Shown here piece after piece: positions 42,919-57,377 of a stretch of DNA of 64,000 bases. How positions within the stretch are numbered: position 1 is the first letter of the stretch; each line of letters opens with the position of its first letter. Source of the DNA: Abyssibacter profundi (GTDB lineage: Bacteria; Pseudomonadota; Gammaproteobacteria; Nevskiales; OUC007). The stretch is taken from contig NZ_QEQK01000015.1 of assembly GCF_003151135.1 (NCBI RefSeq), positions 136 to 64,135 of the forward strand. Direction: 5' to 3'. Made by a program: the position numbers and the translations under genes. The notes beneath the pieces are model-generated. The model saw only the letters and a list, made by a program, of their open reading frames with translations. It was not told where the DNA came from and did not search any database.

Positions 42919-42969
42919 TTCCCTGACCTGTCGGGTGCCGGTGCGTGCTGGCCTTGCAGTCAGGACAAA

Positions 42970-42989
42970 TACTGTATAAAAATACAGTT
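42970..42989 (+). promoter_or_regulatory. LexA-binding SOS box
   Basis: TACTGTATAAAAATACAGTT: CTGT-N8-ACAG with the canonical flanks, near the gammaproteobacterial consensus. It sits 31 bp upstream of the start at 43021 and overlaps a TATAAA that could serve as the -10 element, so LexA would block transcription directly. Confidence 0.85.
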
Positions 42990-43020
42990 ATTGATTTGGT
43001 CCTGTCCGCGAGGTTCCGGC

Positions 43021-43527
43021 ATGTCTTCGATTCGCTCCCGTCGCACCCTGTTTGCAACAACTGTCGCGCTGCTGTTGGCGGCAACGAATCTCGCCGCCCA
43101 ATGGGGTGATCGTGAGCTGGCGCAGGCCGACCGTGATCGAGCCGCCGCAATTCAGGCCGCCGAGGGTTACGTGCAGGCCGCGTTACGCCACGACGATCTG
43201 GCCACGCGCTATGTGGCACCGCAGTTCGGGGGGCGGGTGCCGGCGCAGCTCAGTATGGTCGATACGCTGCGTGTGGCCTGTCACCTCGTCGCAGAAGGGG
43301 ATCGTCGTTACCACCGTTACCTCGAACTGGTTCAGGTGCGCGTTCGTTTGCAGGCGCAGTCGCAGCCGTTGCCCCGTCGTTTGGTTGAAGAGCTGGATTC
43401 GCTGAGGGCCCCGCCCATGCAGCCCCGTCACCTGGTGCGCAGCGCGGAGTTGTTGGCGGCCTGTGACCAGCCGGACACAGCGCTGGTCGCGGGTCTGCGG
43501 CCGCTGGAGCATTCGCCCTCATCCTGA
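43021..43527 (+). CDS. Predicted secreted or membrane-anchored SOS-controlled protein
   Basis: 168 residues with GAGG 7 nt before the ATG. N-terminus SIRSRRTLFATTVALLLAAT is a signal peptide or single anchor, ending NLAAQWG; the rest is a helical, Arg- and Leu-rich domain with no recognised family. Cys residues at two positions in the mature part. The SOS box immediately upstream implies induction by DNA damage. Small membrane-anchored SOS proteins often inhibit cell division, but nothing in the sequence proves that here. Confidence 0.65.
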   Translation: MSSIRSRRTLFATTVALLLAATNLAAQWGDRELAQADRDRAAAIQAAEGYVQAALRHDDLATRYVAPQFGGRVPAQLSMVDTLRVACHLVAEGDRRYHRYLELVQVRVRLQAQSQPLPRRLVEELDSLRAPPMQPRHLVRSAELLAACDQPDTALVAGLRPLEHSPSS

Positions 43528-43640: not shown

Positions 43641-44042
43641 ATGACTGGACTAATGGCTCTGGCGGGCTTCACCGCCATCACCTTGCTGCTGCCACTGATC
43701 TACGCTGGCTATCGCGTACCGCTGGTTCTTAGCGGCAAGAAAGCAGCGGACCACTGGACACGTGGTCGGCCGGAGGATGATCCGGGCCTGATCATTCGGC
43801 TCAAGCACGCCCATCTGAACTGTATTGAGAATCTGGTTCCGTTTGCCGCTGTGGTTCTGTTGGCGGTGGCTCTGGACCAGCGGGCCGTGATCGATGCGCT
43901 GGCGCCCTGGGTGTTGTACGCGCGTCTGGTACAAATTGCCGTGCATAGCGTGGGTACCAGTTTTCCGTTGGTACTGGCCCGGGCGACGATGTTTATCGCG
44001 CAGGTCCTGCTGATGCTCTACATGCTGTTCAACATCATCTAA
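43641..44042 (+). CDS. MAPEG family membrane protein
   Basis: 133 residues; ATG 43641 with GGGAGGAG upstream. Four transmembrane helices and the family signature RLKHAHLNCIENLVPFAAVV between helices one and two. MAPEG proteins include glutathione transferases and peroxidases; the bacterial members like this one are mostly uncharacterised. Monocistronic by appearance, converging on the kinase gene. Confidence 0.85.
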   Translation: MTGLMALAGFTAITLLLPLIYAGYRVPLVLSGKKAADHWTRGRPEDDPGLIIRLKHAHLNCIENLVPFAAVVLLAVALDQRAVIDALAPWVLYARLVQIAVHSVGTSFPLVLARATMFIAQVLLMLYMLFNII

Positions 44043-44138: not shown

Positions 44139-46829
44139 TCAGATGGCCGCTTCTGACCGGATGGCCTGAGCCCGCTGATACAGCGCATGCTGGGCACCGA
44201 ACTGCGACTTGAGCGCGCCTGTGGCGGTCTCCATGAGCTGGTGTCCCTGCTCGCGATTGCCGGCAGCGACCAGAGCACGGCCCAGTTCGCAGCGCAGCAG
44301 TTGCACCTGATAGTGCTCAGGGCCGTGCAGCGCCTGCTTGATCTCCAGAGCCTGTTCGAATCGCTGCACGGCATCGGCGTCGCCGCGATAAAGCGCCAGT
44401 CGCGCGCGATAGCTCAGCGCCAAAGACAGGTGCGGCTTACCCGGCTCGCCGGTCTCGAGCAGAATTTCGATGCTGCGGTCCAGCACATCTTCAGCGCGAT
44501 CAAAGTCCCCGTTGACCGCCAGTGCATGTCCGCGAAGCACGCGACAATCCGTGCCGTAGATGTCGTTCTGGGTGCTGGGTGTCATGTCGACCAGGGTCGA
44601 TTCAAGTTCAACCAGCGCATCCTGGTGGCGCCCGTCTTGCAGCAGGACGTAGCCGCGTTGGCAGCCCAGTGCGGTTGTGAGCTTGTCGCCCCGTTCACCG
44701 TATTCATGGGCCATGGGCAGGGCCTGGTCGACGGTGGTCAGTGCCGCATCCAGCTGGCCATTGTCGGTCTGGAGCTTCGATAGATTGAGCATCTGACGGG
44801 CTAGAGCGGCGGATGGGCCATAAAGCGACTGCCGGAGTTCGATGGCGCGCTGCATGCGCTCGGCCGCCGTCACCAGATCACCGCGCTTGCGGGCAATGGC
44901 TCCCCAGTTGCTCAGGGTGTTGAGCGCGTTGACGGTCTGGGTCTTGTCCAGGGCTTCCCAGACGGCCCAGGTTTGCGCGCTGACTCGCTGGGCAGCGTCC
45001 ATGTCGTTGTTGTAGAAATGCGCCACCACCAGGTTGCTCAGCACAATGGCGGTTTCTTCGTGGTTGCGGCCCCAGTGGCGGTCCGCGCGGCGCAGGGCAT
45101 CCTTGATGACGCCCACGGCCGCCTCGGGGTTGTCATCCAGCCGATACAACCGTGACAGCATCGAAGCCGAGTGGATGAGCTGAACTTCATGGCGTGATTC
45201 GTTGGCCAGCCAGTAGTCATGCGCCTGCTGAAAGAGTGCGCGTGCGCCGGCGGTATCGCCTGCTTCAAAGCGAATCTGTGACAGGTCGAATTGGGCCAAT
45301 GCGCGGATGTCCGGGGGAATCTGCGGGGACGGATTGTTGGCGATGCGCTCCAGAACCGGCTCGGCCCGGCCGTAGTCGTCCATGGCGAAAAAGATGGTGC
45401 CGATCATCCGCAGGCCGGCAGCGTGGCTGGCCGGATCGTCATCGAGCTCGGCATCAAGATGCGCCAGCGCATTGTCCAACAGGCCAACGGCGGTGAGCGG
45501 TTCGCCGGTTTCGTTCTGACTGCCGGCGGCGCCCAGTACCCGGGCCATGGCATCCCGCATGCTGGCAACGCGGGCAGCGTCGCGCAGTGCGACATCTCGC
45601 TGGACCGCGGCGCGATGTGCGTAATAGCTGGTCATGCCCAGTGCCGCGATGATCAACGTCAACACCAGTGCCGACGCGGCCACCGCCACACGGTTGCGGC
45701 GGATGAAGCGCCGGGCAACATAGCGACGCGCACCCCGACGGGCCGCAACCGGCCGCAGAGCGAGCATGGCGTCTATATCCTCGCAAAGCGCGAGTACGCT
45801 GGGGTAGCGGGCATCCGGCTCCTTGCGCAGCGCCATGGCGCAGATGGCATCGAGATCATCCGTCAGATTGTGGCCATGCAGGGGGCTGGAGCGATCGATC
45901 AATGAACTGACAACAGGGGGCACGGTGGTCAGCACCCGGTTGATGGCGGCGGGGAGCGGGAGCCCGTCCAGTTGTTGCGGCGGCTGTCCTGCAAGCAGGG
46001 CATAGAGCACCGCCCCCAGCCCATGCACGTCAGTGGCCGTTGTGATCTGACCGCCGGCCAGTTGCTCGGGGGCCGCGTAGTTCGGGGTGTAGAGCGCCTG
46101 TGTCAACTGGCCATTCTTCACGCCCGAATCATCGATCAGCGAGGCGATGCCGAAGTCCAGCAGTTTGGGCGTGCCGTCTGCGCGAACAAGAATGTTGGCC
46201 GGTTTGATATCGCGGTGGATGACCAGACGACGGTGGGCATAGGCGACGGCGTCGCAAATGCACCGGAACAGATCGAGCCGCGCGTGCAGTGCCAGTCCGT
46301 GTTGTTGGCAGTAGTCGAGGAGTGGCAGGCCGTCGACATACTCCATGGCCATATAGGGATGACCCTGGTCGTCGACACCGCCGTCCAGCAGTCGCGCGAT
46401 GTTGGGATGATCCAGGTCTGCCAGGATCTGGCGCTCGCGCTGGAATCGTTGCAGCCGTCCGGGATCACGTGTTGGCAGTCGTTTAACGGCCGCTTGCTGT
46501 CGATATTGCCCGTCGGAGCGGTCCGCCAAATAGACCTCTCCCATGCCGCCCCGCCCCAGCGGGCAGGCCACGGCCCAGACACCAATATGGTCTCCGCGGG
46601 CCAGGGCATAGTCTGCGGTTTCGTCGGGGGTAGCCGTCGAGGCTGAGGCTGCGGGTTGCTGCAGGAACTCGCCGGCATCGCGGTCGGCATCCAGCAAGCG
46701 CTGCACCGCCGTGCGCAGCCTGTCATTCCCCTCGCAGAGCTTATCCAGCATGGCCTGTCGGCGGTTTGGCGCGACATCCATGACCGCATCGAATACCCGT
46801 TCGATCTCGGCCCAATTTGTTTCGTTCAT
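44139..46829 (-). CDS. Membrane Ser/Thr protein kinase with C-terminal TPR repeats
   Basis: 896 residues from ATG 46829 (an upstream in-frame TTG is disfavoured). N-terminal 80-residue helical segment, then a Hanks-type kinase domain: PLGRGGMGEVYLA, catalytic Lys in AAVKRLP, VIHRDIKPANIL, LLDFGIAS, YAAPEQL. One transmembrane helix (AASALVLTLIIAALGMTSYY) follows the kinase domain, and the remaining 480 residues are tetratricopeptide-like helical repeats, presumably periplasmic. Resembles kinases common in Xanthomonadales relatives and Myxococcota. Divergent from aidB with only 74 bp between starts. Confidence 0.9.
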   Translation of the reverse strand: MNETNWAEIERVFDAVMDVAPNRRQAMLDKLCEGNDRLRTAVQRLLDADRDAGEFLQQPAASASTATPDETADYALARGDHIGVWAVACPLGRGGMGEVYLADRSDGQYRQQAAVKRLPTRDPGRLQRFQRERQILADLDHPNIARLLDGGVDDQGHPYMAMEYVDGLPLLDYCQQHGLALHARLDLFRCICDAVAYAHRRLVIHRDIKPANILVRADGTPKLLDFGIASLIDDSGVKNGQLTQALYTPNYAAPEQLAGGQITTATDVHGLGAVLYALLAGQPPQQLDGLPLPAAINRVLTTVPPVVSSLIDRSSPLHGHNLTDDLDAICAMALRKEPDARYPSVLALCEDIDAMLALRPVAARRGARRYVARRFIRRNRVAVAASALVLTLIIAALGMTSYYAHRAAVQRDVALRDAARVASMRDAMARVLGAAGSQNETGEPLTAVGLLDNALAHLDAELDDDPASHAAGLRMIGTIFFAMDDYGRAEPVLERIANNPSPQIPPDIRALAQFDLSQIRFEAGDTAGARALFQQAHDYWLANESRHEVQLIHSASMLSRLYRLDDNPEAAVGVIKDALRRADRHWGRNHEETAIVLSNLVVAHFYNNDMDAAQRVSAQTWAVWEALDKTQTVNALNTLSNWGAIARKRGDLVTAAERMQRAIELRQSLYGPSAALARQMLNLSKLQTDNGQLDAALTTVDQALPMAHEYGERGDKLTTALGCQRGYVLLQDGRHQDALVELESTLVDMTPSTQNDIYGTDCRVLRGHALAVNGDFDRAEDVLDRSIEILLETGEPGKPHLSLALSYRARLALYRGDADAVQRFEQALEIKQALHGPEHYQVQLLRCELGRALVAAGNREQGHQLMETATGALKSQFGAQHALYQRAQAIRSEAAI

Positions 46830-46903
46830 CCCCGTCGCCCGCTGTTGAGCTTGCCCCTTCGACCATGATCCACTGTCGTTCAAAGTTCCTCAAGAAACAT
46901 GCC

Positions 46904-52045: not shown

Positions 52046-52408
52046 TGGTGGAGGCGGCGGGAATCGAACCCGCGTCCGAAAGCCCTCTGCCTTTCGATCT
52101 ACATGCTTAGCCTAGCCTTTGATTGTCGGCGACTGTTACCCGGCAGGCGAGGGAAGACAGCCGCTTAGACTCACGAAGTTTTAACCGTTGGACCAGAGAC
52201 CTATCCGCGGGCGAGCTTGTGTAATTTGACGCCCGATACCCAGCCCACAAGCAGACCAGGTCGGACGCTCACTGCGGTTTTTTACGCAGCGAGGGCGTAG
52301 TTGTCGTCGTTCGCAACTAAGCTTGATTGCAAGTCTGTTTTACGAGGGGGACTGCACCTCGGCATGCACGTCAGGTTTCGCGACTCCCGTCGAATCCAAG
52401 TCGCCCCC
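52046..52408 (-). ncRNA. ssrA: Transfer-messenger RNA (tmRNA)
   Basis: One-piece tmRNA of 363 nt. The 5' end GGGGGCGACTTGG pairs over 7 bp with the 3' CGCCTCC preceding the encoded CCA; the T arm GGGTTCGATTCCCGC precedes the 3' end. The tag reading frame is at 52282-52314. Rescues stalled ribosomes together with SmpB, whose gene lies immediately upstream on the same strand. The 3' end is a common integration site, but no integrase or repeat of it is visible here. Confidence 0.97.
52282..52314 (-). other. tmRNA tag-peptide reading frame
   Basis: Resume codon GCG followed by codons giving A-N-D-D-N-Y-A-L-A-A and TAA. The same tag occurs in Pseudomonas and related gammaproteobacteria; the LAA end directs ClpXP degradation. 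Confidence 0.95.
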
Positions 52409-52479: not shown

Positions 52480-52965
52480 CTAGGCTTTTTCGCCGTGACG
52501 CAGGATGCGTGCTTTCTGGCGATCCCATTCGCGGCTCTTGATGTCCGAGCGCTTGTCATGCTGCTTCTTGCCCTTGGCGAGACCGATTTCCAGTTTGGCC
52601 CGCCCGCGCGTCCAGTGCAGGTCCAGGGGGATCAAGGTATAGCCCTGGCGCTCGGTGGAGCCGATGAGTCGGCTCAGTTCGCGGCGATGCAGCAGCAGTT
52701 TGCGCGTGCGGTCGGGCTTGGCGACGACATGCGTCGATGCGGACTGCAGCGGATTGATATGCGCGCCCAGCAGCCAAGCTTCGCCGTTCTTGAGGTACAC
52801 ATAGGCTTCAGCGACCTGGGCCCGGCCCTCGCGCAATGCCTTCACTTCCCAGCCATTGAGAACGATGCCGGCCTCGAAACGGTCCTCGATGTGGTAGTCG
52901 TGCCGTGCGCGTCGGTTTACGGCGATCTGGCGATCACCCAATTTTGATTTGCTCTTCTTGCTCAC
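52480..52965 (-). CDS. smpB: SsrA-binding protein SmpB
   Basis: 161 residues. OB-fold RNA-binding protein that delivers tmRNA to stalled ribosomes. Conserved segments: [35 protein letters not shown], and the basic C-terminal tail [20 protein letters not shown] that enters the mRNA channel. Located 71 bp upstream of ssrA on the same strand. The usual divergent ratA gene is not found; an NSS transporter is there instead. Confidence 0.97.
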
Positions 52966-55691: not shown

Positions 55692-57377
55692 TCAGGCCGT
55701 GGCTTCGCCCAAGCCGAGCATCTCGCGGGCGTGGGCTCGTGTGCGCTCGGTGACCTCAACGCCACCGAGCATGCGGGCAATTTCTTCGACGCGGCGATCC
55801 TCCTGCAGTTGTTCAACCCGGGTTCGGGTCGCCTGGTCGCTGCTTTGTTTGCTGACGTGATACTGCTGATGCCCCTGCGCGGCCACCTGCGGCAGGTGGG
55901 TCACGCAGAGCACCTGATGTCGCTCTGACAACTCCGCCAGGCGTCGGCCGACGATTTCTGCAACGGCGCCGCCGATGCCGGCGTCCACCTCATCGAAGAT
56001 CATGGTCGGCGCTGCGTCGTCGCCCAGCACCACGAGCTGAATGGCCAGCGCCAAGCGGGAGAGCTCGCCCCCGGAGGCGACGCGAGCCAGTGGCCGCGCG
56101 CTTTGACCGGGATTGGCGGCAATTTCAAACGTGACGCGATCCATCCCGTGCGGGCCAACCTGCTCGGGGTCTGGACGGATACTGATGCGAACCTGCGCGT
56201 CAGGCATGCCGAGGCTGCGCACATTGTCGGTCACGGCCTGCTGCATCCGCATGGCAGCGTCTGAGCGCGCGCGTGTGAGTTGCTGGGCGGCCTCTCGATA
56301 CGCCGCAAGGGCGGCCTCGATCTCCTGCTGCAGTCGCTCCGTGTGCTCGCCGGCGTGGATGGCCTGATCCAGCCGATGGCGCAGGCTTTGAATCAACTCG
56401 GGCAGGGTGTCGGGCTGGCAGTCATGTTTGCGGGCCAAGCGGTGCAGCTCGGTTAATCGATCATCTACGATTTGCAGCCGCTCGGGATCCAGTTCCATGC
56501 GGTCTAGCTGGCGCGTAACCAGACGCGCAGCATCCTCCAGCTGGATGGTCGCGGAATCCACAAGTTCGCGCGCCTCGGAAAAGGCACTGTCGACAGCCTC
56601 CAGGTCGGACAGCACGTCCCGGGCCTTGCCGCTGCGCTCAATGGCGGCGCCGTCGTCGGACTCGACGAGCAGGCCGATGACGGCCGCTGCATCCCGCATG
56701 AGCTGCTCCGCATTGGCCAACCGCCGCTGCTCCTGGTCGAGCTGTTCGAATTCACCCGGTTCAGGCGCGATGGCGTCCAGTTCCTGGAGCTGGAATTGCA
56801 GCAATTCGATTTCTGCCTCGGTCGGCTTGCCTGCCGATTGTGCCTCGCCCAGTGCGTCGCGCAGCCGTTTGAGATCGGCCGCCCGTGTCGCCACGGTTGT
56901 CAGGACCTGGTCGTGGCGTCCGAATGCGTCCAGCAACTGACGCTGCTGGGTGGGGTCGAGCAGGCGCTGGCTGTCGTGCTGGCCATGGACATCGACCAGC
57001 CGTTCGCCCAGCGCCCTGAGGCTGCGGATATTCGCCTGCGAACCGTTGATAAAAGCACGCGAGCCGCCGTCCGCCATGACCACGCGGCGGATCAGGCAGC
57101 ACCCGGGGTCGTCGGGGTCGTCCAGCGCCTGATCACGCAGCCAGGCACCTGCGGGCGAATCCACACCCACGTCGAAAGCCGCGTCGACCTGCGCGCGCGG
57201 TTGGCCGGTGCGGACAGCGTCTGAGTCAGCGCGGTGACCCAGTACGAGGCCGATGGCGTCGATCAGAATGGACTTGCCCGCACCGGTTTCGCCGGTGAGG
57301 ACGTTGAAGCCGTCTCCGAAATCCAGATTGAGATCGGTAATCACGGCGAGATTCTGGATAGAAAGCTGGCGCAACAT
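55692..57377 (-). CDS. recN: DNA repair protein RecN
   Basis: 561 residues, SMC-like ATPase for double-strand-break repair. Walker A TGETGAGKSILIDAIGLVLG near the N-terminus, two coiled-coil arms, signature ASGGELSRLALAIQL, and Walker B TMIFDEVDAGIGG near residue 465. Start overlaps the nadK stop (TGATG), so it is translated from nadK mRNA. No SOS box was found ahead of either gene. Confidence 0.96.
   Translation of the reverse strand: MLRQLSIQNLAVITDLNLDFGDGFNVLTGETGAGKSILIDAIGLVLGHRADSDAVRTGQPRAQVDAAFDVGVDSPAGAWLRDQALDDPDDPGCCLIRRVVMADGGSRAFINGSQANIRSLRALGERLVDVHGQHDSQRLLDPTQQRQLLDAFGRHDQVLTTVATRAADLKRLRDALGEAQSAGKPTEAEIELLQFQLQELDAIAPEPGEFEQLDQEQRRLANAEQLMRDAAAVIGLLVESDDGAAIERSGKARDVLSDLEAVDSAFSEARELVDSATIQLEDAARLVTRQLDRMELDPERLQIVDDRLTELHRLARKHDCQPDTLPELIQSLRHRLDQAIHAGEHTERLQQEIEAALAAYREAAQQLTRARSDAAMRMQQAVTDNVRSLGMPDAQVRISIRPDPEQVGPHGMDRVTFEIAANPGQSARPLARVASGGELSRLALAIQLVVLGDDAAPTMIFDEVDAGIGGAVAEIVGRRLAELSERHQVLCVTHLPQVAAQGHQQYHVSKQSSDQATRTRVEQLQEDRRVEEIARMLGGVEVTERTRAHAREMLGLGEATA

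Follow-up and report, generated by a model that had tools for sequence, protein, structure and literature searches.

A gene for a 168-residue protein of the marine bacterium Abyssibacter profundi is very probably regulated by LexA, and its product, here called P0001, is very probably exported. The role that we place first for P0001, as a real possibility although short of an even one, is that of a LexA-controlled periplasmic effector that delays septation. The gene lies within a window of 64,000 nucleotides (contig NZ_QEQK01000015.1, positions 136 to 64,135), which is the whole stretch of DNA that was analysed. An ATG at 43021 opens a frame that ends at 43527 and encodes 168 residues, the length given in the original prediction. 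The features on which the argument rests, with their positions in the window, are these:

42954 to 42959, plus strand: candidate -35 element (TTGCAG), of which TTGC, 12 bases upstream of the box, is invariant in the three Abyssibacter genomes
42970 to 42989, plus strand: predicted LexA operator TACTGTATAAAAATACAGTT, from its matrix score, a zero control count and conservation in three species
42977 to 42982, plus strand: candidate -10 element inside the operator, placed by a 17-base spacer from the invariant TTGCnn
43010 to 43013, plus strand: candidate ribosome-binding site GAGG, 7 bases upstream of the ATG
43021 to 43527, plus strand: gene for P0001, a predicted exported helical protein of 168 residues, from the open frame, its orthologues and dN/dS
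43021 to 43098, plus strand: putative signal peptide, residues 1-26 (MSSIRSRRTLFATTVALLLAATNLAA), judged by eye and from conservation
43246 to 43470, plus strand: most conserved region, residues 76-150, from invariant columns, dN/dS and a pLDDT mostly of 83-96
43641 to 44042, plus strand: gene for a MAPEG-family membrane protein, the conserved next gene (Pfam PF01124, 49.6 bits)

The operator carries CTGT at 42972-42975 and ACAG at 42984-42987, and the ATG follows it 31 bases downstream. We scored it with a matrix built on ten boxes taken from the same order but from other genes and genomes, TACTGTATAAAAATACAGTT itself being left out. It reached 33.9 bits. Under the same matrix, the runner-up in the window scored 8.3 bits, and 3.7 Mb of first-order random sequence yielded 19.1 bits at best. 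Our statements on boxes across the genome come from pattern searches; when the core was given an A/T-rich spacer (CTGTWWWWWWNNACAG), these returned four forward sites and none for the reversed-pattern control. Thus the near-consensus LexA site of the original prediction was borne out, and TACTGTATAAAAATACAGTT is, as judged from its sequence, a strong LexA operator.

The same site was found in the two congeners that have an orthologue of P0001, Abyssibacter sp. SW_4_13 (G002, locus L020) and an uncultured Salinisphaerales assembly of the same genus (G001, locus L021). Both carry TACTGTATATAAATACAGTT at the position of the window's box, so that a check for an SOS box before the orthologues, which had been set beforehand, was passed by both. 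Across the three species, 19 of the 20 box columns are invariant, against 18 of the 70 other intergenic columns (Fisher p 1.9e-8). As is typical of LexA regulons of the gamma- and beta-proteobacterial type, a CTGT-N8-ACAG operator lies over a candidate promoter, lexA and recA are preceded by the same motif in this genome, and the operator is kept before the orthologues.

The promoter itself is drawn with more reserve. An overlap of the operator with the -10 element, as originally proposed, is plausible from TTGCnn and the spacer, the candidate -10 reading TAAAAA in the window and TATAAA in both orthologues; it received no support, however, from a generic promoter scan, which found nothing at the operator region. 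TTGCAG is a weak match to the -35 consensus. Given the empty scan, we regard the -35 as weak, and the promoter stays a candidate.

Four genes of the genome have strong sites, namely lexA (TGCTGTATTTTTAGACAGTT), imuA (identified 2 bits below the NCBIfam cut-off), a PA0069-type radical SAM gene and the gene for P0001. The recA box (TACTGACGGAATAAACAGTA) is weaker, with one mismatch, and overlaps the recA start. Because this set is very small even with recA added, the gene for P0001 would be one of the few main SOS outputs. It lies on contig 15, whereas lexA has NUDIX and GAF-like genes as its neighbours on contig 7. The further claim that no SOS gene is its neighbour is right as far as genes with a box are concerned: recN, which in E. 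coli belongs to the classical SOS genes, is located 12 kb downstream (55692-57377, minus strand) and has no LexA box by the matrix. A recN without a LexA box has been reported for alpha- and beta-proteobacteria (PMC3323433).

Other boxes were noted as well. The LexA box of the PA0069-family radical SAM gene (L011, 437-1495, minus strand; L054) lies 6 bases before the start, and the core box AACTGTATAAATAAACAG also occurs beside an apparent homologue of this gene in Abyssibacter sp. SW_4_13 (L055). The boxed gene brings to mind splB, for which SOS regulation is reported in alpha- and beta-proteobacteria (PMC3323433), a candidate likeness; a search for literature on Abyssibacter or on a link between PA0069 and LexA returned nothing useful. 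In the same congener, a LexA-like box TACTGTACTTTAAAACAGTT (L060, contig 108, locus 1499-1518) lies 86 bases before an MBL-fold gene that matches the anti-phage 6A-MBL system (NF058524, 390 bits), so that this Abyssibacter may have an anti-phage system with an SOS box. In the sister genus (G003), a strong box AACTGTATTAATATACAGTC (L062, contig 197, locus 1499-1518) precedes the gene for a small exported Arg/Asp-rich protein that differs from P0001 and has no Pfam match; it is a second predicted SOS-boxed periplasmic protein in the family.

P0001 begins with a basic segment (SSIRSRR) followed by a hydrophobic core with a modest hydrophobic peak, its one N-terminal hydrophobic stretch. Leu-Ala-Ala, invariant in all three sequences, comes next, followed by a residue that varies and by Trp-Gly, which does not. 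The whole looks like a Sec-type signal in which LAA would be the site for signal peptidase I; by eye and from its conservation this suggests cleavage, and export with cleavage is likelier for P0001 than anchoring. Of the two alternatives first offered, an N-terminal anchor or a signal peptide, the signal peptide is thus the likelier, and "secreted" fits the protein better than "membrane". The predicted mature protein has 142 residues and a calculated pI of 7.1. AlphaFold, run with the three sequences, gave confident all-helical models in two runs, one of the precursor (mean pLDDT 80, pTM 0.66) and one of the mature form (mean pLDDT 84, pTM 0.74). The conserved region of residues 76-150 contains the motifs GDxRYHRYLELVQ and PPMQPRHLVRS together with Cys87 and Cys148, both of which are invariant in the three orthologues.

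The family appears undescribed, in agreement with the original prediction of an unknown family, as P0001 found no match in sequence or fold databases. Searches of Pfam, NCBIfam and PHROGs returned nothing beyond noise, and a sequence search of the PDB gave no real match; a pyruvate kinase (E 0.06) covered a single helical stretch and was judged a chance hit. Foldseek and VIA, used with the full and the mature models, gave no E below 0.65 and no Z above 4.8 among the matches listed, and the best Z of 4.8 belonged to unrelated helical pieces. Since these are non-matches on helical bundles, they say nothing about function. Neither P0001 nor its orthologues matched the SulA profiles PF03846, TIGR00623 and NF007892, and no LysM domain was found in P0001 with Pfam. 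Nor was a SulA found above the cut-off anywhere in the genus; the significant weak SulA matches turned out to be ImuA itself.

Among the genomes searched, the gene is present solely in the three Abyssibacter species; the orthologues of the two congeners show 54-59% identity. Outside the genus, searches of 40 relatives, of 85 genomes from the order and 274 from the class, and of about 85,000 genome species as well as viral contigs, plasmids and phages found no homologue. Matches with E from 1e-4 to 1e-2 (L004, L022-L024, L068-L069) were short and were rejected, and on reading L004 proved to be antisense to a 461-residue gene of another kind. The dN/dS values of the three pairs, 0.35, 0.27 and 0.17, indicate that the gene is under purifying selection in all three species. 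The constraint is strongest in residues 76-150, where the values fall to 0.17, 0.16 and 0.09.

The gene also keeps its place. In all three Abyssibacter genomes a response regulator-GGDEF gene, the box, the gene for P0001, the MAPEG gene and, on the other strand, a kinase-TPR gene follow one another in this order. The gap between the genes for P0001 and MAPEG measures 113-158 bases and holds no convincing terminator, and MAPEG is a possible second gene of the same unit. Of the two MAPEG genes in the sister genus (G003), neither has a P0001 gene as neighbour, and a close relative of the response regulator was not found there. The kinase gene (44139-46883, minus strand) encodes a Ser/Thr kinase with a TPR-rich C-terminal half, is convergent with MAPEG and is placed alike in the three genomes. 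Farther along the window, a tmRNA gene (52046-52408, minus strand) adjoins an smpB-like gene (52480-52965, minus strand).

We propose that LexA represses the gene by occupying the -10 region, and that upon DNA damage active RecA would lead LexA to cleave itself, turning the gene on together with recA, imuA and lexA. This course of repression and derepression is suggested by the site, by its conservation and by its being shared with lexA, recA and imuA. Given its signal peptide, P0001 would be exported through Sec, lose its first 26 residues and become a soluble helical protein of the periplasm, about 142 residues long, in which a disulfide from Cys87 to Cys148 probably holds the structure. Its conserved C-terminal half may bind a partner in the envelope machinery. 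This partner would most likely belong to the machinery of septal wall synthesis, with the effect that division is delayed until the chromosome has been repaired; such a septal partner, and hence the delay, is put forward tentatively.

Division delay is ranked first because no recognisable SulA was found in the genus and because the SOS division inhibitors of groups other than SulA target the synthesis of the wall, in the membrane or on its far side. Against it speaks that the known inhibitors keep an anchor, whereas P0001 looks cleaved, and that P0001 has no LysM, no lexA neighbour and no sequence or fold match pointing to the divisome. Moreover, SulA-like proteins evolve fast, and one could have been missed. 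Nearly as likely as division delay is a periplasmic protein, again under LexA, that protects or stabilises the envelope under genotoxic stress, either like a chaperone or by binding the wall or outer membrane, and leaves division unaffected. Small periplasmic proteins that are all-helical and of similar length often serve as chaperones under envelope stress, such a role suits a protein that retains no anchor, and the small basic protein of the sister genus (L062), likewise exported and strongly boxed, suggests that envelope proteins are a recurring SOS output. Yet the Pfam profile of CpxP/Spy (LTXXQ) matched none of the three orthologues at E up to 10, no chaperone family and no fold was matched by P0001, and the CpxP/Spy fold was absent among the Foldseek and VIA matches listed. 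As for the boldest form of the division-delay reading, in which P0001 would represent a novel family of SOS effectors, soluble in the periplasm and free of any membrane anchor, that stop or reshape septal wall synthesis from the outer side of the inner membrane in a gamma-proteobacterium without SulA, we consider it rather unlikely.

The remaining explanations carry little weight. SOS control combined with an export signal could also mark a protein that is released from the cell, for instance an antagonistic or lysis-linked one after the principle of colicin operons. This is improbable, the neighbours being a response regulator, MAPEG and a kinase with no immunity, lysis or release gene among them, the chromosomal place being strictly conserved, and no relatives occurring in phages, plasmids or viral contigs. 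Less probable still is that the box mainly serves MAPEG and the small protein is a passenger: MAPEG does follow in three of three genomes with no convincing terminator between, but it is P0001 that stands directly behind the box and is itself under purifying selection, and the MAPEG genes of the sister genus do without it. Finally, CTGT-N8-ACAG taken without its spacer occurs about as often as expected by chance (32 sites in the genome against 33 for the reversed-pattern control; in the window 2 sites where 0.65 would be expected, p ~0.12, not significant alone), as would suit a chance palindrome before a gene that damage does not regulate. The score of the full motif far above the null, the zero control and the conservation in three species make this highly improbable.

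LexA control and export of P0001 imply that the damage response of Abyssibacter probably acts in part outside the cytoplasm, in a way not yet described. SOS regulons have only a small core in common, and many of their outputs are specific to a lineage and of unknown role. In Abyssibacter, a predicted signal peptide puts one of these outputs outside the cytoplasm; its gene is under selection and has one of the strongest LexA sites of the genome. In a genus where no SulA was found, this gene makes it possible to probe how DNA damage is coupled to the envelope or to division.

As a possible agent of division delay under LexA, P0001 would resemble SulA, but SulA is cytoplasmic and binds FtsZ, whereas P0001 has a predicted signal peptide and no sequence match to SulA. 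Another comparison is with YneA, ChiZ, DivS, SosA and SidA, with which it would share being SOS-linked, lineage-specific, unrelated to SulA and at least in part extracytoplasmic or membrane-bound (PMC6851548, PMC4211646, PMC13396833). SosA and further inhibitors of this kind, none of them SulA-like, work on wall synthesis (PMC6851548); SidA and DidA act on FtsW/I/N (PMC4211646), and YneA acts on FtsW, which it needs its anchor to find (PMC13396833). All of the five keep a membrane segment, whereas the signal of P0001 is likely cleaved. Several of them have LysM or lie beside lexA, and P0001 with its 168 residues does neither; LysM (YneA, ChiZ) and a lexA neighbour mark most of the Gram-positive inhibitors.

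Regarded as a regulon member, the gene is best compared with hypA and hypB, lineage-specific hypothetical genes of the LexA regulon of beta-proteobacteria (PMC3323433). Like them, it combines a class-typical LexA motif with a gene of unknown function confined to one group; it differs in belonging to another lineage and in encoding what is, as far as database searches show, another protein, predicted to be exported. By these sequence features the gene for P0001 is a lineage-specific member of the LexA regulon, of a kind that is known.
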